Assembly (NCBI GenBank): GCA_022641375.1
Contig: JALCDF010000016.1
Span: forward strand, 1-32,080
Source: Megasphaera sp.
GTDB lineage: Bacteria; Bacillota; Negativicutes; Veillonellales; Megasphaeraceae
Direction: 5' to 3'
Length of the DNA: 32,080 nt
The first letter of the stretch is position 1; each line of letters starts with the position of its first letter. Shown here piece by piece: positions 1 through 9,569 of this stretch. A program made the position numbers and the translations under genes. The notes beneath the pieces are model-generated. The model ran no database searches, had not been told where the DNA came from, and was given only the letters and a program-made list of their open reading frames with translations.

Positions 1-420
1 GTCGACATCCAATACCATTTCCATCATGCTGATCTGTTCTTCATATACGGCCGGATCCACTTCTTCTTTGATTTCCGGTTCGCAGATATGAAATACTGTA
101 AGTCCTAACTGGACTCCTGTCAACGGACCTGCAAAAGTCGGGTCTCCTGCTGTTACGGTTTCTGCTGCAAGACCTGCAGCTTCTCCTTCAGCAGCACCTA
201 CTAATACGACCAGGTTTTCCGGGCCATACTGTTCAGCGAAATCTTTAACCCTCTTTTGATTTTCCAAGTCCATTGCACCAGCACTCGTTCAGACAAAGCA
301 TTCTGTCGATGCAAATACTACATCGGCACCAGCCGTCTTCGCGCATTCTGCTATTGCTGGGCCCGGAATACCGTCGCGGTCGCCGATGATGACGACTTTT
401 TTCCCTTTTAGAATGCTCAT
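1..420 (-). CDS. grdA: Glycine reductase selenoprotein A (GrdA), partial at 3' end, Sec44
   Basis: GrdA is the small shuttle selenoprotein of glycine reductase. Its selenol takes the carboxymethyl group from substrate protein B and passes it to protein C, where acetyl phosphate is formed. The translation starts at ATG 418-420 after an AAAGGAGG site and begins [17 protein letters not shown]. The active site reads [14 protein letters not shown], with U encoded by an in-frame TGA at 289-291 (codon 44, the family's known Sec position). The reading frame stays open to base 1, giving 140 codons; the family is usually close to 160 residues, so roughly 20 C-terminal residues lie outside the window. 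It is the last visible gene of the minus-strand grd operon, 62 bases after trxA. An annotation that treats TGA as stop would lose or split this gene. Confidence 0.96.
289..291 (-). other. In-frame UGA selenocysteine codon (Sec44 of GrdA)
   Basis: TGA on the minus strand, codon 44 of grdA, inside the conserved context CFV-U-TSAGA. Both sides of the codon keep strong GrdA similarity in the same frame, so it is read through. I could not pick out a convincing SECIS hairpin just downstream: only a 3-bp TGC/GCA stem with a TGGT loop is evident by eye. Confidence 0.95.
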
Positions 421-482
421 AACGCGATTCCTCCTTTATGAAATTTGCTTTTATAACAGAGATTTACATCTCATATAAAGCC

Positions 483-803
483 TTATTTATAATATTCCAG
501 AATCATCTTTTCGATGTTTTCCGGTGTAGCATCATCTTTTACGCATTCCGCTACTTTTTGTCCGCCCTGATAGATTGCCATGACCGGCAACCCTAATATT
601 TTCTGGCTGATAGCCATACGACGGGCTTTAGATGTGTTGAGTGCGCAGAATTTAATTTTGTCACCATATTTTTCGGCATAGGCATGTACTGTCGGCATGA
701 GAGCTGCACAAGGAACACAGCCATCCCCGTAAAAATCTACAAATACAGTACCTTCTGCCTGTAATACTTCTGGTTCAAAGGTTTTCTTATCAACTTCCAA
801 CAT
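483..803 (-). CDS. trxA: Thioredoxin of the glycine reductase system, GCVPC active site
   Basis: A 106-residue thioredoxin. The redox motif is G-C-V-P-C (Cys29, Cys32), not the usual WCGPC; a GCVPC variant is what I recall for thioredoxins encoded in grd operons of amino-acid-fermenting clostridia. It should reduce the selenenylsulfide/disulfide left on protein A after each turnover, taking electrons from the TrxB next door. The start is chosen as ATG 801-803 (MLEVDKK): the ribosome site AAGGAG lies 9 bases upstream, whereas the ATG nine bases earlier directly abuts that site. The ribosome site overlaps the trxB stop codon, so the two are translationally close. Length is normal for the family. 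Confidence 0.95.
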   Translation of the reverse strand: MLEVDKKTFEPEVLQAEGTVFVDFYGDGCVPCAALMPTVHAYAEKYGDKIKFCALNTSKARRMAISQKILGLPVMAIYQGGQKVAECVKDDATPENIEKMILEYYK

Positions 804-816
804 GAGAGACATCTCC

Positions 817-1776
817 TTATCCGTAGTATTTTTCGTTATTCATTTCCGTCAGATATTTATTGACCTGCATTGCTGCAATGGCCCCATCGGCAGCTGCCGT
901 AACAACCTGGCGTAAAAACTTCTTGCGCATATCGCCGACAGCAAAAACACCGGGAATATTGGTATTCATATCTTCATCTGTCAGGATATATCCATCTTCC
1001 ATATCGATTTGTCCTTCGAACAGCTGTGTCGTCGGTACTAAACCGATAAACCCGAATATACCGAACAGCCCGTCTTCCGGATCTGCTTCTATTTTTCTGG
1101 TTTCACCCGTTTTTTTATTGCGTACGATCATCCACTGAACAACATCTTCGCCACCGATTTCATCGACGACGGAATCCCAGAAGAAATCAACTTTAGGATT
1201 GGCAAATGCTTTTTCCTGTAACGAAGGTACAGCACGCAATTTGTCACGACGATGAATAATCGTAACCTTGCGGGCAAATTTAGTCAGATACAATGCTTCC
1301 TGTACCGCACTGTTCCCGCCGCCTACAACGTACACATCCAGATCTTCAAAGAAGTCTGCGTCGCACGTTGCGCAATAGGAAACACCGCGTCCCTGGAATT
1401 GTTGTTCCCCTTTGCATCCAATAGGACGATGAGAAGCACCTGTAGCTAAAATAACTGTTTTTGCTTTATACGTCTGTTTGACCCCGACGATTTCTTTTAC
1501 GTCACCGGACAAACGAACTTCTTTGATTGTATCGGACACTCGTTCGACACCAAATTTTTCTGCCTGTTTAGTCATACGGGCAATGAGTGTCGGCCCAGAT
1601 TCGCCTTCGAGCATCTGCCCCGGATAGTTTTCAATAATATCCGTAATAGCGATTTGACCGCCATCCTGTGCTTTTTCAATAAGCAGGGTCGGGATACGGC
1701 TTCGGCCTGTATATATTCCTGCCGCGAGACCAGCGGGACCAGCGCCTAAAATAATGACATCATATACGTCTTTCAC
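817..1776 (-). CDS. trxB: Thioredoxin reductase
   Basis: A 319-residue NAD(P)H- and FAD-dependent thioredoxin reductase. Visible motifs are the N-terminal FAD-binding GAGPAGLAAG (residues 11-20), the redox-active CATCD (Cys135, Cys138), the second Rossmann motif GGGNSAVQEA, and the C-terminal FAD motif beginning GVFAVGD. It keeps the neighbouring thioredoxin reduced so that glycine reductase can turn over. The start is a GTG at 1774-1776, supported by AAAGGTGG seven bases upstream. It lies between grdB and trxA in the operon; the stop codon TAA is part of the trxA ribosome site. Confidence 0.97.
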   Translation of the reverse strand: MKDVYDVIILGAGPAGLAAGIYTGRSRIPTLLIEKAQDGGQIAITDIIENYPGQMLEGESGPTLIARMTKQAEKFGVERVSDTIKEVRLSGDVKEIVGVKQTYKAKTVILATGASHRPIGCKGEQQFQGRGVSYCATCDADFFEDLDVYVVGGGNSAVQEALYLTKFARKVTIIHRRDKLRAVPSLQEKAFANPKVDFFWDSVVDEIGGEDVVQWMIVRNKKTGETRKIEADPEDGLFGIFGFIGLVPTTQLFEGQIDMEDGYILTDEDMNTNIPGVFAVGDMRKKFLRQVVTAAADGAIAAMQVNKYLTEMNNEKYYG

Positions 1777-1854
1777 GATGCAGCCACCTTTCTATACATG
1801 GTTTTGATTAACCGGTTGTTTTTATAATCATTACGTACTGATAAAACATGCCTG

Positions 1855-3165
1855 TCAGTCATCAAAGACCGTTTGGCCATCTACTTCTGTCGTGAGCGCT
1901 TTCAATGCCTTTTCTACTAAATGTCTGCGCAGCTTCTTTTCTTCTTCATGAGTGAGTGCCGGATTTCCCAACGGATGGGGAATGGCAACGGTAGGCACAA
2001 TTCTATTTGCGCCTACGGTCAGGGATATCGGAGTAATGGTACACATATGAACTACCGGGAATCCTGCCCGTTCTATTTCTTTTACCATCGTTGCACCGCA
2101 ACGAGTACAAGTGCCTCACGTAGAGGTGAGAATAACTGCGTCAACGCCGCCATTCTTCAGTTTTGTTGCAATTTCAGCTGCGAATTTCTTGGCAGATGCA
2201 ACGGCTGTGCCATTGCCTGTCGTCGTGTAGAATGTATTGTAAAGCGATCCGATAAGACCTTCCTTTTCCATATCCCGCAGTACATCAACGGGCAGGACCC
2301 GGTCGGAATCTTCATTGGCATAGGTCGGATCATAGCCGCCATGTGCCGTTTCATAACCGTCCGCTGTCAAATCCATGACACCGGTAATATCATATTCCCC
2401 ATAACGGGATGCATTGGATGCTTCAATATGATCCGGATTTCCTTTAGGAACAATACCACCGGATGTAACCAATGCGATTTTTGCTTTGGTGATATCCTTT
2501 ATAGCCGGACTGGGGGCTACCCGGTCAAATACCGGCATCGGATATTCTGTCGTAAACGGTTTTCCTGCCAATTTTTTAATAAGCATCTTGACCGCCCGTT
2601 TGGATCCCCGTTCTTTTTCAAAGAAATTGACGCGGATGCCATTCGGCATATACCCGTCTTCACAAGAAGCTCCGATAGGTTCGCCTTTAGCTAATTTCAA
2701 AGCCATAGGTGCCATCACCGCAACGGCTTTACGCATGCCGGCTGCATTATTCTTGGTAGGTATAATATATACTTTGTCTTTAAACATATCGGCGCCGGGG
2801 TTTTCTTCATACATCCCGGTCAGGACCGGTACGCCGAGTTCTTCTTTTACAGCATCACAAATCGTACCACAGGCAACGCCGTAACGGCCGGCGTTAAAAG
2901 CCGGACCGGCAACGAATAAATCTGCCTGCTGGTCTTTTACCATCTGGATGATCTGTTCCTGCGCTTCTTTCATATGTTCATTGAAATACGTATCGCCGCA
3001 AATAATGGTAGCGACTATTTCCGCTTCTTCGCCAAAGGCTTTCTGAAATGCCAGACCAGGACCTACAATGCCCTGCCGGATTTCCGGTGGATAATCCGCT
3101 TTTTCTTCGCCGCCGATCTGCGCAAAGAACTGATTAATATAATGAACTACTTTGAGCTTTGTCAT
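1855..3165 (-). CDS. grdB: Glycine reductase substrate-binding protein B, selenoprotein subunit (GrdB), Sec350
   Basis: GrdB is the selenoprotein subunit of substrate protein B. Together with the pyruvoyl subunit from GrdE it binds glycine as a Schiff base and attacks it with selenocysteine. The gene is a single 436-residue frame interrupted by TGA at 2116-2118, codon 350, in the motif TST-U-GTCTRCG. Similarity continues on both sides: residues 1-349 begin MTKLKVVHYINQFFAQIGGE, and the tail after Sec carries GTCTRCGATMVKEIERAGF. The start ATG 3163-3165 follows an AAAGGAGG site. It is 19 bases downstream of grdE. A good SECIS candidate hairpin lies 11 bases after the UGA. A naive call would give two separate genes (2116-3165 and 1855-2088). 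Confidence 0.97.
2088..2104 (-). promoter_or_regulatory. Candidate bacterial SECIS hairpin of grdB
   Basis: On the minus strand, TCGTTGC-GGT-GCAACGA forms a perfect 7-bp stem with a GGT apical loop. It begins 11 bases after the Sec UGA. Bacterial SelB-recognised SECIS hairpins sit inside the coding sequence directly 3' of the UGA and typically expose a GU in the loop, so both position and loop fit. The codons involved encode RCGAT. Confidence 0.7.
2116..2118 (-). other. In-frame UGA selenocysteine codon (Sec350 of GrdB)
   Basis: TGA at codon 350 of grdB in the context TST-U-GTC. Position 350 is the established Sec position of the family. The 77-residue continuation is clearly GrdB-like and is not preceded by its own ribosome site. 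Confidence 0.96.
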
Positions 3166-3184
3166 TGAATATCTGCCTCCTTTC

Positions 3185-4465
3185 CTATCGGGCGCTCATG
3201 GTATTAAACCCAAGCTCGTTCGTCGCACCCGTAAATACCTGCAATTCTACTTCGATACTGCCGTCTTCATGAAGGCTGTGTTCATTGCCGCCGGCAATCT
3301 TGGTTACATAATCCAGTGTTCCGATAACTTTGTCCATCTTAGGAACCCGGACAAGCTGGTTTGCATTCCCGCCGGTAACAACAGCTGTTGCTGCCGGATC
3401 GGCATCGGCCAACGATTGGGATTTGCCGTCACGTCCTGCATATTCATCCGTAATAATGACGGTTTTAATTCCTTCAGCTTCGATTTTCTTGCAATTCATG
3501 ATCAAGTCCGTATCCGGATTGCCAAACCCTTCCTGCGAAACAACGGCACCATCCAGATCAAGCATACGGCATATTTTGGCTGTCCAATCCGATGAACGAT
3601 GTTTATCTGCCAAATACACTGTTTCGTTCGTTATGATCACGCAGACAAAATTCAATGTTTTGCCATGAGCTTCATATAAATCTTCTACAACAGGGTTATT
3701 TAAATGGTGATACGTCGTATTTTTATCGCAGGCTGATACACAGTTGCCTGAAATAATAGCTCCATCCATCAACTCTGTCGGATAGAGGATCGTCGGCACG
3801 AGTTTCTTGGCATCCGCACCATATACATACGTATCATGAAGCAGCCCCTGGCTCTGGAGCATTTGTACATACGCTACGCGGGGAAGATCCGGATACGTAT
3901 TTTTCCCTTCCAGGATCGTCGGGGTTTCAAATACTTTTGTTTCTTCCGGTACCAGTTCTTTAGCTAAATCACCGATATACGAAGCAATTTTAAGACCTGC
4001 AAGGCGTACCGATTTTTCATACGTATGACGTTCCGTTCCTTCTGCCGGTTCGCAGACGAGGCACAGATTGATAAGCTTGGAGAACGGTGTATATTGCGCT
4101 CCCGGACCGGTCATATCAATGATACCTTCCTGGAAACCAACGATTTTTCCTGCCGTAACGACCGCCATTCCTTTTAATGCATAGGTTTTGCCACAGCCTA
4201 CGGTATCCATCGGCGAAATGATGCCGGGGAATATACCATTCTTACCGCCTACTTTTGTCCGCGGTTCGATAACGTCTTTGACCGGTGTAATACGAACACT
4301 TTCTCCCGGTTTGGCAATGTCTACATGAACAGTAGCTATGTTTTCATCTTCCAGGACCATGCCTTCTATCACTGCTTTATCCACAGTCAGCACACTGCCG
4401 GAAAAATTCATGGTATCGCCAAACACAACATCCGTTACATGAAAATATCCCATTTCTAACTTCAC
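3185..4465 (-). CDS. grdE: Glycine reductase protein B proprotein (GrdE), pyruvoyl precursor
   Basis: A 426-residue proprotein that is self-cleaved between Asn241 and Cys242 in the visible motif SGN-CVSACDKNTTYHH. The cysteine becomes the pyruvoyl group that binds the amino group of glycine; the two fragments become the small subunits of substrate protein B. The cleavage residue number agrees with known clostridial GrdE. The start is GTG 4463-4465 with AAAGGAGG eight bases upstream, giving MKLEMGYFHVTDVVFG. It is the first catalytic gene after grdX and is followed after 19 bases by grdB. Length is as expected. Confidence 0.97.
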   Translation of the reverse strand: MKLEMGYFHVTDVVFGDTMNFSGSVLTVDKAVIEGMVLEDENIATVHVDIAKPGESVRITPVKDVIEPRTKVGGKNGIFPGIISPMDTVGCGKTYALKGMAVVTAGKIVGFQEGIIDMTGPGAQYTPFSKLINLCLVCEPAEGTERHTYEKSVRLAGLKIASYIGDLAKELVPEETKVFETPTILEGKNTYPDLPRVAYVQMLQSQGLLHDTYVYGADAKKLVPTILYPTELMDGAIISGNCVSACDKNTTYHHLNNPVVEDLYEAHGKTLNFVCVIITNETVYLADKHRSSDWTAKICRMLDLDGAVVSQEGFGNPDTDLIMNCKKIEAEGIKTVIITDEYAGRDGKSQSLADADPAATAVVTGGNANQLVRVPKMDKVIGTLDYVTKIAGGNEHSLHEDGSIEVELQVFTGATNELGFNTMSAR

Positions 4466-4535
4466 TGCAATTACCTCCTTTGAAAATCATTATCTATATG
4501 AACCCAAAGGTTCACAGGGAAGTACTGCACTGTGA

Positions 4536-4919
4536 TCAGTCCATCGCCCTTGCCGAAGCAACTGCACTGGAAATAAGGGAGTAATCGATGTACTGGAAAT
4601 CACCTAACACACTGTCATTCCATTTTTTATGCAGATCAGCAAATTTTCGACATGCTAAAATGCATTCTTCAATAATACATTCCGACTCTTTGTCTACTGC
4701 CGGTCCTGCTTTTACTGATACCATCACTGATTTATACGGTGTCTCATTCGGCTTCACGCTTCCTGATAGCGGATGAGTCAACAACCGGCATCCTTGTTGC
4801 ACCAGATTACGTACCCGTACCAACACGTCCATATACGAATCTGTCTGGAATTCAACAGGATATTGGGCATCATATGCTTGTCTGACAGCAGGATTATTGG
4901 TGATGATCCGAAAATCCAT
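4536..4919 (-). CDS. grdX: GrdX family protein
   Basis: A 127-residue protein matching the small GrdX family that opens many glycine reductase operons; its biochemical role is not established. Recognisable stretches are MDFRIITNNPAV at the start and GCRLLTHPLSGSVKPNETPY in the middle (residues about 45-64). The start is ATG 4917-4919, with AAGGGAGG six bases upstream; an in-frame extension to 4958 is possible but would bury that site in the coding region. It is the first gene after the glycine-riboswitch leader and is followed by grdE 70 bases later. No signal peptide or membrane segment is visible. Confidence 0.9.
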   Translation of the reverse strand: MDFRIITNNPAVRQAYDAQYPVEFQTDSYMDVLVRVRNLVQQGCRLLTHPLSGSVKPNETPYKSVMVSVKAGPAVDKESECIIEECILACRKFADLHKKWNDSVLGDFQYIDYSLISSAVASARAMD

Positions 4920-5092
4920 GACACGCCTCCCTTCTGATTGCATTGAGTACCTCTGCACGTCGCCTGCTGATCCGGGCTATCGACCACTACCCGATTCGCA
5001 CGCTGAACCGCCGTAAATACCGGCGGAAGATGCCGTACGGTCATCTTTTTATGTCCACGTCTCTGTCAGCTGTCCTCGTAACCAACAAAAAA
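4920..5092 (-). other. Leader between the riboswitch terminator and grdX
   Basis: About 170 transcribed bases with no gene. It holds a small GC-rich hairpin (CCGCCG 5008-5013 with CGGCGG 5021-5026) and the grdX ribosome site. An 88-codon open frame crosses it from 5044 but has no ribosome site and runs out of frame into grdX, so I do not treat it as a gene. Confidence 0.5.
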
Positions 5093-5141
5093 GAGGAAAC
5101 GGCATTTGTCCAATGTAATTGGACATCGTTGTCGTTTCCTC
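5087..5141 (-). terminator. Riboswitch expression platform: intrinsic terminator upstream of grdX
   Basis: On the minus strand GAGGAAACG (5133-5141) pairs perfectly with CGTTTCCTC (5093-5101) and is followed by six T (5087-5092). The loop contains a second perfect hairpin, TGTCCAAT-TAC-ATTGGACA. The 5' arm touches the CAGAG arm of the upstream helix (base 5141 is shared), so the two structures are likely to compete or to be coupled. It lies between the aptamer and the first gene, as expected for transcription attenuation. Confidence 0.88.
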
Positions 5142-5287
5142 TCTGTCAGTAACCTTTGTTATGTTACTATCTTCACTTTCAGAGTGCAGATTTTCTGCGA
5201 TCCTTTTGCTTGAAAGTTTCAAATACGAAGGATTCCTTCATATCTTTGCCTCTTCAGCGGTCGCTTCGGGCTCTCTCGCGCAGAAAA
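5141..5287 (-). ncRNA. Glycine riboswitch: one aptamer plus a ghost second aptamer helix
   Basis: The aptamer (5191-5287) is closed by a perfect 9-bp stem, TTTTCTGCG (5279-5287) with CGCAGAAAA (5191-5199). Inside are glycine-aptamer core motifs: GAGAG after the closing stem, CCGCTGAAGAGGCAAA near 5245-5260, and CTTTCAAGCAAAAGGAT near 5200-5216, plus a small hairpin GAAGG-AAT-CCTTC. These align by eye with the B. subtilis gcvT leader (GCCGAAGGAGCAA, CTCTCAGGCAAAAG). Downstream, CTCTG (5180-5184) pairs with CAGAG (5141-5145), with AGTAAC/GTTACT inside; these correspond to the ends of a second aptamer whose core is missing, as in singlet riboswitches with a ghost aptamer. The likely role is to permit grd transcription when glycine is abundant; the direction is inference from the operon's function. 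Confidence 0.86.
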
Positions 5288-5338
5288 TTCAGACTGCAAG
5301 TCGCTATTTTTTATTGTCAAATTCGTTTCTGTAAATTC

Positions 5339-5367
5339 ATTATATCAATCCCTAAAATAAAAGTAAA
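5339..5367 (-). promoter_or_regulatory. Promoter of the grd operon
   Basis: On the minus strand TTTACT (5362-5367), a 17-base spacer, then TATAAT (5339-5344): a near-consensus housekeeping promoter. Transcription would begin near 5332, about 45 bases before the aptamer stem. Confidence 0.8.
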
Positions 5368-5471
5368 GGATTATTTTCACGTATGATTATATGGCATAAA
5401 AAAAGAGTTTTTTTAATTTGTCCATGTCCAGTAGGCATATAGCAGATACGTCCGGCTATATTATCCATGCA

Positions 5472-6467
5472 TCAACCGTTTTTTTCCGGCAAATCATAGC
5501 AGCGAACGGCCCCCTCCGTATGCCGCACCAGCCGTCCGGCATGAATCAGGTATTCCAGATGAGCCAGCGTTTCTCCCAAGGCAAACCACTTTTGTGTCGG
5601 CGGAAACTCATTCCATACTTTGCCCCGCATGGACCAGGTCATTTGCTGCGCAATTTCATAGGCCGTACGGTGCGGCTGCCGTTTGACAATGGCCTCGGCC
5701 TCAGCCAGACGGCGCCGATGATGTTCTTTGATGGCATCTATCCGGCTGACAATAGACGTATCCCCATGGCGATGGCCGGGTAACGCCAATTTCACCGGTA
5801 AGTCCCTGACCTTATCAAGACTACGAAGATACTGTTCCAGTGCATCACGCATATGGTACCAGATTTGGATATTGGGCGTAATATCAAATAAAATATGATC
5901 GCTGGTGAAGAAGATTTCCTGCTGCGGCAAATACAAACAGCACAACCCTTTCGTATGTCCCGGTACATGGATTACACGGATATCCATATCTGCCAGATGA
6001 AGGATATCTCCATCCGCCACGGTATGACAGGGGAAATCCGGATCCGGCGAGTAGGCCCGGGCATGGTTGGAAAACTGCCGATGGATTTCTTCGGCAGGCA
6101 TCCCTTCCTTCATAAAATTCTCTTCGGCAAAACGCCATGTCGAACCATCCTTTGAATCAAGGAGATACTGGTAATCTATGCCGTTCATATAGATACGACA
6201 TCCCTGTTGGTTGAAAAGCTGTACCAGACCGCTGTGGTCCGCGTGCAGATGGGTAATGAATAAATCCGTATTGCTCCAGGCAATCCCCAGCTCATGCAGG
6301 CCATCACATAAAGCCTGACGGCATTCCGGCCGGTTGAACCCCGTATCAATGACAAGATTCCGCGTCGGCCCTTTGATGACATAGGAATTCAGATAACGCA
6401 GCGGATTATCCGGCAGATCTACCTGGATACGGTATATATCCGGATGATGATACAGTTGATCTATCAT
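5472..6467 (-). CDS. Metallo-beta-lactamase-fold hydrolase
   Basis: A 331-residue protein of the metallo-beta-lactamase superfamily (glyoxalase II/Zn-hydrolase-like). The metal-binding motif H-L-H-A-D-H is at residues 73-78 (THLHADHSG), with a further DTGFN motif at 41-45 and VPGHTKG (about 170) and LPGH (about 235) as the later metal-binding histidine motifs. The C-terminal ~90 residues look like a winged-helix-type tail seen in several MBL hydrolases. The start is ATG 6465-6467, preceded by GAAAGGTGA; an upstream in-frame start lacks a site. The substrate cannot be told. It follows the pth terminator and precedes the grd promoter, so it is probably transcribed alone. No strong terminator is visible after it, only an AT-only hairpin near 5396-5415. 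Confidence 0.85.
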   Translation of the reverse strand: MIDQLYHHPDIYRIQVDLPDNPLRYLNSYVIKGPTRNLVIDTGFNRPECRQALCDGLHELGIAWSNTDLFITHLHADHSGLVQLFNQQGCRIYMNGIDYQYLLDSKDGSTWRFAEENFMKEGMPAEEIHRQFSNHARAYSPDPDFPCHTVADGDILHLADMDIRVIHVPGHTKGLCCLYLPQQEIFFTSDHILFDITPNIQIWYHMRDALEQYLRSLDKVRDLPVKLALPGHRHGDTSIVSRIDAIKEHHRRRLAEAEAIVKRQPHRTAYEIAQQMTWSMRGKVWNEFPPTQKWFALGETLAHLEYLIHAGRLVRHTEGAVRCYDLPEKNG

Positions 6468-6505
6468 ATCAATCACCTTTCTAAAAAACACAATTATATC
6501 AAGAG

Positions 6506-6529
6506 AAAACCCCCGCCTTGCGACGGGGG
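6506..6529 (-). terminator. Intrinsic terminator after pth
   Basis: On the minus strand CCCCCG (6524-6529) pairs with CGGGGG (6510-6515), followed by TTTT. It lies seven bases downstream of the pth stop codon and closes the glmU-prs-pth unit. Confidence 0.85.
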
Positions 6530-6536
6530 TCGAATA

Positions 6537-7148
6537 TTATTCTGATTTAGCAGGTTCAGCCGGAGCTTCTGCTGCTTTTTTCTTTTTTTTCTTGGGATTA
6601 TACCGATTCATTCCAGTGTCGACACCCAAAACAAGACATCCTTCAATGGCTTTTGCTGCTGCTTTCAAGCCGTCTTCATACGGTTTCCGGAGTTCTTCGG
6701 GAAACGGCGTAAGAACATGGTCAACGACATCATGATGTGGCAGCGGACGACCGATACCGATGCGAAAACGGGTAAATTGACTGCAGCCGTTGGCAAAAAG
6801 ACTCTTGATGCCATTATGGCCTCCGTCACTACCGGTCTTGCGGATACGGATACGGCCTACAGCCAGATCCAAGTCATCATAAATCACATAGACATCCGGT
6901 TCATCGATCTTATACCAGCGCATGAGAGGTCCCACAGCCTGGCCGCTGTTGTTCATAAATGTCTGCGGCTTTACTAAAATGATTTTTTCACCATTCACCA
7001 TGGTCTGCGCAACCAGCGCATCCATTTTATGCTGCCACAGCGTTACATCCCAGCATGCTGCCAGTTCGTCAATAACGCGGAAACCGGTATTATGTTTTGA
7101 ATTTTCATATTCCCGGCCGGGATTTCCCAGCCCTACAATCATATGCAC
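6537..7148 (-). CDS. pth: Peptidyl-tRNA hydrolase
   Basis: Cytoplasmic enzyme that releases peptides from prematurely dropped peptidyl-tRNA. It carries the signatures IVGLGNPGREYENSKHNTGF (residues 4-23, catalytic His19) and GHNGIKSL. The product of 203 residues ends in a lysine- and alanine-rich tail (KKKKKKAAEAPAEPAKSE) that extends beyond the folded domain. The start is the GTG at 7146-7148: AAGGAC lies 7 bases upstream and overlaps the prs stop codon, while the ATG at 7140-7142 would be 13 bases away. The gene order glmU-prs-pth is common in Firmicutes. Confidence 0.95.
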   Translation of the reverse strand: MHMIVGLGNPGREYENSKHNTGFRVIDELAACWDVTLWQHKMDALVAQTMVNGEKIILVKPQTFMNNSGQAVGPLMRWYKIDEPDVYVIYDDLDLAVGRIRIRKTGSDGGHNGIKSLFANGCSQFTRFRIGIGRPLPHHDVVDHVLTPFPEELRKPYEDGLKAAAKAIEGCLVLGVDTGMNRYNPKKKKKKAAEAPAEPAKSE

Positions 7149-7159
7149 AATAAAAGTCC

Positions 7160-8125
7160 TTATTTATCAAAGAGGCTGCTGACCGAAACATCATGGAAAA
7201 TACGCATGATAGCTTCACCCAAAAGGGGTGCAACAGACAATTGTTTAATCTTGTCGATTCTTTTTTCTTCCGGAAGAGGAATTGTATTCGTAATAATCAA
7301 TTCAGAAATAACCGACTTCTGAATGCGTTCCACGGCGGGATCCGTAAGGACAGCATGCGCACAAGCCGCATATACACGGGCAGCACCCATATCCTTCAGC
7401 GCTTTTGCACCGCCACAGAGAGAACCGGCGGTATCAACGATGTCATCTACCATGAGACAAGTTTTGCCCTGGATATCACCGATAATATTCATGACTTCTG
7501 CAACGCCCGGACGGGGACGACGTTTTTCAATGATAGCAATCGGCGCATTGACACGATCTGCCAAATCACGGGCCCGCGTTACACCGCCAAGATCCGGAGA
7601 TACGACGACGAGATCGCCCATATCAGATTCTTCTTTTTTCTGATTAATGTATTTAGCGATAATGGAGGCCGAACCCAGATGATCTACAGGGATATCGAAG
7701 AAGCCCTGGATTTGACCGGCATGCAGATCCATCGTAACTACCCGGGTAATACCGGCAGTCGTCATCAAATCAGCAACCAATTTTGATGTAATCGGTTCAC
7801 GTCCTCTGGTCTTGCGGTCCTGACGGGCATATCCATAATACGGAACGACAGCAGTGATATGACGTGCAGATGCTCGTTTAAACGCATCGGCCATAATTAA
7901 CAATTCCATCAGCGTATCATTAGCCGGCTGGCATGTCGGCTGGATTACAAATACATCTTTACCGCGGACGCTTTCATCTATCATGACCTGGATTTCGCCA
8001 TTATTAAATTTGCCGACAAAGGCTTTCCCTAACGACAATCCTAAATAATCAGCGATTTCTTTGGCCAACTGTGGATTGGCATTTCCTGTAAAAATCTTTA
8101 ATTTTCTCCCGTCTTCGTAACTCAT
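7160..8125 (-). CDS. prs: Ribose-phosphate pyrophosphokinase (PRPP synthetase)
   Basis: A 321-residue enzyme making PRPP from ribose 5-phosphate and ATP for nucleotide, histidine and tryptophan synthesis. It shows the ATP/metal signature [18 protein letters not shown] and the PRPP-binding loop [11 protein letters not shown], as well as the flexible-loop KTRGREPI segment. The start is ATG 8123-8125 (MSYEDGRK), with AGGGAGG a few bases upstream; a longer frame to 8176 has no ribosome site. It lies 73 bases after glmU and its stop overlaps the pth ribosome site. Confidence 0.97.
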
Positions 8126-8198
8126 ATTAAGCCTCCCTGTATGAATTCTATAATCATTTATAGTAGATAAAAGCAAACTAAGGTGCGGTTAATGCAAA

Positions 8199-9569
8199 TT
8201 ATTTTTTATAGGTATCGTCTTTGACCCAGCCTTCAATATTACGTTGTCTGGCCCTTGCTACAGATAATGCCTTATCCGGAACATTTTTGGTAATCGTAGA
8301 CCCGGCTCCTACATATGCGTATTCACCGATGGAAACGGGCGCAACCAGATTGCTGTTGCAACCGACAAACGCATGATTCCCAATGGTCGTACGGTGTTTG
8401 ATCTTACCGTCATAATTCACGGTAATAGTACCGCAGCCAATATTTACGCCGCCGCCGACATCACTGTCTCCGATATAACTGAGATGCGGTAATTTTGTAC
8501 CATCACCAACAGAAGAGTTCTTGACTTCCATATAATTGCCGACTTTAACATTATTGCCAATAACGGTATTCGGCCGAAAGTGAACAAATGGACCGATTTC
8601 GCAGCCATTCTTGATTTCGCAGTCATGGGCATATGTGAACTGGAGATGATCCTGATTTCCCATTTTCACATTGGTCATACGAACGTACGGCCCAATCTGG
8701 CAATCTTCGCCAATAGTTGTATGTCCTTCCAGTACTGTCCCCGGATATAATACGGTATCCCGGCCAACAGTTACATCCGCATCCACATATGTATTACCCG
8801 GATCGATAACGGATACCCCTTCAGCCATGAGCTGGTTCAGCTTACGCAGGCGCAATACGCCTTCCGCTTCCGCCATTTGAGCCCTGGAATTGACACCCAG
8901 TGTTTCTTTATAGTCCGGAGCCGCAAACGCGCTAACGATTTTGCCTTCTGATACAAGCATACCGATGATATCGGTGAGATAATATTCTCCCTGGGCATTA
9001 TCATTGGTAATACCATGAAGCATCTGCCACAACAAGGACATATCAAAACAGTAAATACCGGCATTGACTTCATGGACTGCCAATTCATCAGCCGTACCAT
9101 CTTTCTGTTCCACAATTTTGACCACCTGGCCTGCCGCATTGCGGATTACCCGGCCATACCCGGTCGGATCCGGCAGGATTGCCGTCAAAATAGTCGCTGC
9201 TGCACCACTTTTTTGATGGCAGTCTAACAACGCCTTAAATGTATCGGCAGTTACCAGCGGCGTATCACCACAAGTCACCAGCAGCGTTCCTTGCGCGCCT
9301 TGCAAAAGCGGTTCTGCCTGAAGTACAGCATGACCGGTTCCCAGCTGTTCCTGCTGCATCACCGTTTCTGCCTGGTTTCCCACATACGCCTGTACAGTTT
9401 CACCACCATATCCCACAACGATGATCTGACGTTGTGTTCCTGCTGTCTTAACAGCCCTGAGGACCTGTTCCACCATGGGAACGCCGCCCACTTTATGGAG
9501 GACTTTAGGAAATTTGGACTTCATCCGCGTTCCTTTGCCCGCAGCTAAAATAAGTGCAATCGTGTTCAT
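8199..9569 (-). CDS. glmU: Bifunctional UDP-N-acetylglucosamine pyrophosphorylase / glucosamine-1-phosphate N-acetyltransferase
   Basis: A 456-residue two-domain enzyme that makes UDP-GlcNAc for peptidoglycan and lipopolysaccharide. The N-terminal uridylyltransferase domain begins MNTIALILAAGKGTRMKS (signature LAAGxGTRM). From about residue 250 the left-handed beta-helix acetyltransferase domain runs to the end, with hexapeptide-repeat stretches such as VGNYMEVKNSSVGDGTKL and IGDSDVGGGVNIGCGTITVNYDG. AGGGAGG lies upstream of ATG 9567-9569. It is the first gene of glmU-prs-pth. Its promoter is not clear by eye in 9570-9700. Confidence 0.97.
   Translation of the reverse strand: MNTIALILAAGKGTRMKSKFPKVLHKVGGVPMVEQVLRAVKTAGTQRQIIVVGYGGETVQAYVGNQAETVMQQEQLGTGHAVLQAEPLLQGAQGTLLVTCGDTPLVTADTFKALLDCHQKSGAAATILTAILPDPTGYGRVIRNAAGQVVKIVEQKDGTADELAVHEVNAGIYCFDMSLLWQMLHGITNDNAQGEYYLTDIIGMLVSEGKIVSAFAAPDYKETLGVNSRAQMAEAEGVLRLRKLNQLMAEGVSVIDPGNTYVDADVTVGRDTVLYPGTVLEGHTTIGEDCQIGPYVRMTNVKMGNQDHLQFTYAHDCEIKNGCEIGPFVHFRPNTVIGNNVKVGNYMEVKNSSVGDGTKLPHLSYIGDSDVGGGVNIGCGTITVNYDGKIKHRTTIGNHAFVGCNSNLVAPVSIGEYAYVGAGSTITKNVPDKALSVARARQRNIEGWVKDDTYKK

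Follow-up and report, generated by a model that had tools for sequence, protein, structure and literature searches.

A putative singlet glycine riboswitch with a ghost-aptamer arm precedes a glycine reductase operon in Megasphaera

The leader of the glycine reductase operon in the window (the whole 32,080-nucleotide stretch of Megasphaera sp. DNA analyzed here, contig JALCDF010000016.1) is very probably a glycine-sensing RNA switch that turns on glycine fermentation genes. In all likelihood, it is a type-1 singlet glycine riboswitch that would serve the operon as an ON switch at the level of transcription. As shown in Table 1, reading of the DNA and comparison with related leaders identify a leader-linker helix (P0), the aptamer closing stem (P1), a ghost-aptamer arm, and an intrinsic terminator, the 5' arm of which uses part of the ghost 3' strand; from these features we infer glycine binding, docking, and the direction of control.

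Table 1. Features of the leader and of the operon downstream (minus-strand features run from the higher to the lower coordinate)
Feature	Coordinates	Strand	Basis
Sigma-70-type promoter TTTACT-17-TATAAT, extended TG	5339..5367	-	10 of 12 matches in pattern scan
P0 5' strand TGCAG, pairs with linker	5294..5298	-	Reading and covariation
Glycine riboswitch aptamer RF00504, including 10-bp P1	5188..5290	-	45.2 bits; gathering score 32
P0 3' strand CTGCA	5185..5189	-	Reading and covariation
Ghost arm CTCTG (5184-5180)/CAGAG (5145-5141), inner hairpin	5141..5184	-	Reading, fold, tandem relatives
Intrinsic terminator AGAGGAAACG/CGTTTCCTCT (5142-5133/5101-5092) and T tract	5087..5142	-	Fold; genus compensatory changes
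grdX	4536..4919	-	NF038093 128.4 bits, cut-off 40
grdE, glycine reductase component B alpha	3185..4465	-	PF09338 681.9 bits; GrdG 629.5 bits, cut-off 780
grdB, selenoprotein B	1855..3165	-	TIGR01917 723.3 bits, cut-off 602.2; one TGA read as selenocysteine
trxB, thioredoxin reductase	817..1776	-	TIGR01292 364.9 bits, cut-off 343.45
trxA, thioredoxin	483..812	-	NF047697 154 bits, cut-off 140
grdA, selenoprotein A	1..411	-	PF04723 253.8 bits; one in-frame TGA; cut by contig end

The leader contains a single glycine aptamer and covarying helices

The original prediction placed a promoter, an aptamer, a ghost helix, a terminator, and grdX in this order on the minus strand, and both the order and the positions were confirmed. 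A covariance-model search of the window with the Rfam glycine model RF00504, posed beforehand as a test of positions 5191-5287, returned a match that spans this interval with a score above the gathering threshold (E 2.6e-6), in agreement with the proposed identity of the aptamer. It is the single RF00504 match in the leader, as expected of a singlet, and the paralogous leader on contig 36 of the same genome likewise has one. The predicted closing stem is present; by direct reading, P1 comprises 10 bp (5288-5279/5199-5190) and not 9. The region between 5335 and 5085 folds with a z score of -5.1, and none of 200 shuffled sequences was equally stable. The predicted promoter, with its extended TG, was also found, and its hexamers and spacing are, by eye, identical in the contig-36 leader. 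By itself, the promoter pattern would lend weak support, as four promoter-like sites were found in 801 bases compared with 1.8 (S.D. 1.4) in shuffled sequences. The grdX gene begins about 170 bases past the terminator.

P0, which was absent from the original prediction, pairs a leader strand 5' of the aptamer with the linker between the aptamer and the ghost arm. Across 43 leaders, the mean P0 pairing score was 9.98, compared with 8.77 (S.D. 0.27) when the strands were re-dealt among leaders, and none of 2000 shuffles reached this value. In a thinned set of 32 leaders, the score was 9.97 compared with 8.73, and again none of 2000 shuffles matched it, the kinship between leaders being a component that shuffling leaves in place. 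The two strands change in step (GTGG/CCAC, GCGG/CCGC, GTAG/CTAC, TATGG/CCATA, TGCAG/CTGCA, and others), and it would be hard to obtain several distinct pairs across several lineages otherwise than by covariation. A convincing P0 was not found in the leaders of G008, L094, L124, and some others. Between P0 and P1 lies a five-base bulge, TCTGA, which, as judged by eye, is a possible kink-turn site. A different helix considered as a candidate anti-ghost switch, a hairpin between the linker and the bases after CTCTGAA (CAC/GTG in the genus leaders, where the consensus fold also contains it), was rejected: 14 of 2000 shuffles reached its score with 43 leaders and 284 of 2000 did so after thinning to 32.

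It could be argued that the leader is a decayed relic, in which the fold persists and the glycine response has been lost, so that grd would be constitutive or otherwise regulated. The top pair of P1, which lies beside the binding pocket, is G-C in the consensus; in the window and in G001 it sets C against U, in the paralogue C against A, and in G008 U against G; by eye, it is non-standard in three of the four distinct genus leaders. Moreover, the score of 45.2 bits is modest compared with the 62.1 bits of the better of the two agcS aptamers in the same genome. However, the base following the GGA motif varies in other leaders also, and P1, P3, and the terminator are kept by compensatory changes among the four genus leaders (both sides changed at 13 of 43 predicted pairs, with the structure predicted on the same four-leader alignment as was used for counting). 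Because the leader is, in addition, retained in both paralogous operons (84.9%), we consider decay to a relic improbable.

The ghost arm resembles the second aptamer of tandem relatives

Consistent with the predicted CTCTG/CAGAG remnant, an arm sits 3' of the aptamer, as in type-1 singlets. Its strands and position match the P1 strands of the second aptamer in tandem relatives (e.g. L131) and, because the second aptamers of these relatives show the same strands, we read the arm as a putative remnant of a second aptamer. Among 63 leaders with a single RF00504 match, 45 have the ghost 5' strand motif (which itself defines the ghost class in this count), 16 have a second-aptamer core, and two have neither. 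The 45 ghost leaders are those of 40 of the best 80 of 581 loci together with those of the window, contig 36, G001, G008, and G012; this set, and the set of 46 used below, include copies, as the G012 leader is a copy of the contig-36 leader and the G001 leader is a copy of that of L085 (Megasphaera cerevisiae DSM 20462), with which it is identical in the stretch compared. The first strand is CTCTG or TTCTG throughout the 45 leaders, and the first second strand found downstream is CAGAA in 20, CAGAG in 11, CAGGA in five, CAGAC in four, CAGGG in three, and CAGGC in one; in the one leader left, no second strand was matched by the pattern. When this first downstream copy, which is not always the likely partner, is taken, the outer ghost pair is mismatched in nine of the 45 leaders. 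The ghost helix provides little covariation because its core, UCUG/CAGA, hardly varies.

The arm might be regarded as a chance match next to a plain one-aptamer switch: a complement of 5 bp is weak when considered alone, the core hardly differs between leaders, and the ghost helix is missing from the genus consensus fold described below. Against this, the 5' strand motif occurs at the same place in the 45 leaders, 41 of 46 leaders have the arm next to the terminator, and the strands correspond to those of the second-aptamer P1 in tandem relatives. A coincidental match is therefore very unlikely.

A second TGACAGAG, which resembles the ghost 3' strand, is located at 5061-5068 of the minus strand, just past the terminator, and is also found in the contig-36 leader; the matches listed from the 150 bases scanned include no copy of this type after the terminator in M. 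cerevisiae or in G008. This extra copy is possibly a spare partner for CTCTG, or it is there by chance.

The ghost helix and the terminator compete for the same bases

The terminator was missed by a pattern scan that allowed loops of 3-8 bases; here, 31 bases are enclosed. The original prediction of a sequence overlap between terminator and ghost helix was borne out, with the correction that the shared bases are 5142-5141 and not 5141 alone; if U-tract pairing is included, four bases (5144-5141) are shared. The two structures were thus found to overlap, and their exchange was predicted by folding: because of the shared bases, the full terminator cannot coexist with the ghost helix, and a shortened terminator stem can persist. 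The 5' arm of the terminator starts within the ghost 3' strand (defined for this count as the CAGR nearest to the terminator) in 41 of a set of 46 leaders that includes near-copies; this arrangement supports a glycine ON switch.

When the RNA was folded up to the 3' arm of the terminator, the unconstrained optimum contained P0, P1 (nine of 10 pairs), and the ghost helix, with the aptamer interior not folded as in Rfam. In the complete transcript, the terminator formed, and P0, P1, and the ghost helix were gone. The state with P0, P1, and the ghost helix forced has an energy of -66.8 kcal/mol, the state with P0, P1, and the terminator has -68.0 kcal/mol, and the free optimum has -70.4 kcal/mol; hence, the ghost state is less stable than the free optimum by 3.6 kcal/mol and less stable than the P0-P1-terminator state by 1.2 kcal/mol. 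Gaps of a few kcal/mol are of a size that ligand binding and docking could reverse, and secondary-structure folds are blind to tertiary contacts. Forcing the ghost helix in the full RNA left an 8-bp terminator stem, with the base alone lost. Folding predicted the exchange in 25 of the 45 ghost leaders, the criterion being a ghost core that exceeds 0.5 when the RNA is truncated and falls below 0.5 when it is complete; in 17, M. cerevisiae included, the ghost core did not exceed 0.5 even in the truncated RNA, and in three it did not fall below 0.5 in the full RNA. An RNAalifold consensus of the four genus leaders contained P1, P3, and the terminator, and neither P0 nor the ghost helix; it placed a small CACT/AGTG hairpin at the ghost position, in an alignment in which two of the four leaders have the ghost 3' strand out of register. 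We hold the ON-switch reading slightly less firmly because this consensus fold lacks P0 and the ghost helix and because the forced ghost state keeps a shortened terminator.

On the ON-switch reading, the glycine-bound aptamer would dock on the ghost arm and keep the ghost helix closed. The terminator would then be unable to form its base, and RNA polymerase would read through into grdX-grdE-grdB-trxB-trxA-grdA; without glycine, the terminator would win. The opposite arrangement, an OFF switch in which glycine binding favors termination, has precedents in the glycine family, members of which are reported to switch off AGCS-type transporters, with Vibrio cholerae and Streptococcus pyogenes as examples (PMC11477304), and a tandem glycine riboswitch precedes agcS in the genome studied here. 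In the window, however, the P0-P1-ghost state competes with the full terminator for bases, and catabolic targets are reported as being under ON control (PMC6944388, PMC11477304, PMC5666159). As repression of a catabolic operon by its own substrate would also make little sense, we give an OFF switch very little credence.

The downstream genes are assigned to glycine reductase

The expected grd operon lies downstream, with grdE and the selenocysteine-containing grdB and grdA all present. The likely start of grdX is the ATG at 4919, which is preceded by what appears by eye to be a ribosome-binding site; a longer frame from a GTG extends to 4958. A match to SECIS_4 (RF01990) is located at 2078-2115, in grdB. 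The contig ends within grdA; grdC and grdD are present in the paralogous operon on contig 36. An 88-amino acid frame at 4778-5044 was rejected as a gene, having no family match and, by eye, an early stop in the corresponding frame of the paralogue.

By the NCBIfam cut-offs, the downstream genes read as those of glycine reductase rather than sarcosine reductase. GrdB passes the glycine model (723.3 bits; cut-off 602.2) and falls below the cut-off of the sarcosine (GrdF) model (722.2 bits; cut-off 800), and GrdE falls below that of the sarcosine GrdG model (629.5 bits; cut-off 780). It is most unlikely that the operon encodes a sarcosine reductase, or that the aptamer senses another glycine derivative: sarcosine GrdG is the best-scoring NCBIfam model for GrdE (no GrdE-specific model being among the families listed) and GrdB scores nearly equally with the glycine and sarcosine models, but the cut-off is passed with the glycine GrdB model and with neither sarcosine model, the riboswitch-bearing GrdE proteins of L085, L113, L156, and L137 also score below the GrdG cut-off (634.8, 650.7, 657.2, and 719.9 bits, respectively), and no riboswitch was found upstream of the low-scoring PF09338 protein that does pass it (L165, 828.7 bits).

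Glycine riboswitches are common upstream of grdE, and ghosts prevail in one clade

In an even sample of the phylum, PF09338 was matched with an E value of at most 1e-100 in 106 of 398 genomes (this genome included). With the genome of the window left out, the sample for counting riboswitches comprised 142 PF09338 places in 105 genomes, 127 of them at 600 bits or more and 15 below. Of the 103 genomes with a GrdE-like gene scoring at least 600 bits, 68 have a glycine riboswitch on the strand of that gene and no more than 6 kb upstream of it. Counted by gene, 60 of the 127 have a tandem, eight have a single aptamer, and 59 have none, the last class including genes near contig ends. The single or tandem call rests on RF00504 matches under stricter filters, and eight is an upper estimate because 16 of 58 one-match loci in the named genomes keep a second-aptamer core. 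A riboswitch lies upstream of 68 of 95 genes scoring at least 675 bits compared with none of 32 scoring 600-675 bits. Among the 15 matches below 600 bits, one, a 518.8-bit fragment at a contig end (G342), has a single riboswitch match. The split by score fits a glycine-specific switch, with the score band serving as a stand-in for substrate; 14 of the 32 genes in the lower band were scanned, and one of them passes the sarcosine cut-off.

In the named genomes, the best 80 of 581 confirmed GrdE loci comprise 41 with a ghost (one of them, L139, assigned by eye), 26 with a second aptamer, and 13 without a match. Of the tandems, nine have a second aptamer at the gathering score, 16 have one below gathering with the core present, and L158, in which the first aptamer is weak, was assigned by eye. 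The second aptamers of grd tandems are often below the RF00504 gathering score (L126, L131, L134, L135, L141, L145, L149, and others), and surveys based on scores may count some tandems as singlets, as would apply to 16 of the 58 single-match loci here. No RF00504 match was found in the 3.6 to 4.5 kb upstream of grdE at L122, L127, L129, L106, L116, L128, L136, L142, L148, and L154; two further no-match loci, L109 and L125, have too little upstream DNA. Several of the ten, which are close grdE relatives, sit among the ghost loci on the GrdE tree, and loss or replacement of the switch is therefore possible.

On this tree, which is quick and unrooted and has 26 of 78 inner branches open, the distinction between ghost and tandem requires two changes when the no-match loci are left out; with these included, the ghost label requires eight changes compared with a mean of 27.9 after shuffling. 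The pattern is consistent with the second aptamer having been lost mainly once.

Relation to known glycine riboswitches

The original prediction implied that a glycine riboswitch controlling the reductase route would be rare, which does not hold given the frequency in the sampled genomes and the precedent in Clostridioides difficile (PMC11477304). As described in PMC11477304 and PMC10880999, the C. difficile grd operon (CD2357-48) has a glycine riboswitch upstream that is taken to be an ON switch. According to PMC11477304, which cites another paper, the transcription of grd increased with glycine. The C. difficile leader resembles that of the window in ligand family and in its target operon, which includes trxA and trxB. 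The grd leaders in the phylum sample are mostly tandem, whereas the window leader is a singlet.

Type-1 singlets are described in PMC6944388 as having one aptamer and a 3' ghost arm, the stem of which resembles P1 of the second aptamer in tandems. They are viewed there as decayed tandems and are reported to have the glycine cleavage system as their target in 93% of cases. The window leader has the same layout of aptamer and ghost, but its target is glycine reductase; the main text of that 2019 survey, supplements aside, does not name a grd or reductase context. The tandem upstream of Bacillus subtilis gcvT is reported to be an ON switch that operates through a terminator, requires a P0/kink-turn between leader and linker, and is helped by contact between its aptamers (PMC5666159). 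It differs from the window leader in having two full aptamers and the cleavage system as its target, in place of one aptamer and a ghost upstream of the reductase genes. Our literature search, which covered few subscription papers, found no paper on a glycine riboswitch in Megasphaera.

Both glycine riboswitches on grd genes and ghost singlets are thus already in print and are not unusual. What is modestly new is that, in one GrdE clade, the grd leaders mostly carry ghosts instead of second aptamers, which extends the model of decay from tandem to singlet to the glycine reductase context. The window leader would also provide a compact example, with covariation in P0 and in the aptamer, of what is likely an ON switch of the singlet glycine type that controls glycine fermentation genes in a gut-type anaerobe.

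Glycine riboswitches and glycine catabolism in the same genome and genus

The source draft genome (1.69 Mb; 79% complete) contains four RF00504 matches: one in the window, one on contig 36, and an adjacent pair on contig 3. Contig 36 (L009) carries, at 248-8444, a second operon, grdX-grdE-grdB-trxB-trxA-grdA-grdC-grdD, with its own singlet leader. The two grd regions are 83.5% identical over 5462 bases, and their GrdE proteins are 90.8% identical. The pair on contig 3 (28607-28774) is a tandem preceding agcS (L010, 5088-6476), the usual transporter context.

The P protein of the glycine cleavage system (PF02347) was not found in any of six genus genomes searched (G000, G001, G008, G012, G002, and G006), three of which are at least 90% complete with low contamination; a control was positive in 10 of 14 known genomes. 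All six genomes carry glycine riboswitches. As the P protein was not found in these genomes, glycine reductase may be the main route of glycine breakdown there. Across 17 genomes of the family, five grdE genes score above 678 bits (two in this genome and one each in G001, G008, and G012), and each has a single RF00504 match upstream.

We see roughly even chances for a broader scenario, in which a GrdE clade now distributed across Megasphaera, Lachnospiraceae, and other Clostridia would have lost the second aptamer of its grd leaders, the ghost persisting mainly as a competitor of the terminator, and in which, in hosts that lack glycine cleavage, the grd switch and the agcS tandem may make up the whole riboswitch-controlled glycine regulon. 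If true, glycine reductase would be a third genomic context, besides the cleavage system and the transporter, that decides which aptamer survives.

The promoter, P0, the ghost arm, and the terminator are kept in both paralogous leaders, which offer a natural pair within one genome for dose-response comparison. The GrdE encoded on contig 36 is identical to that of G012.
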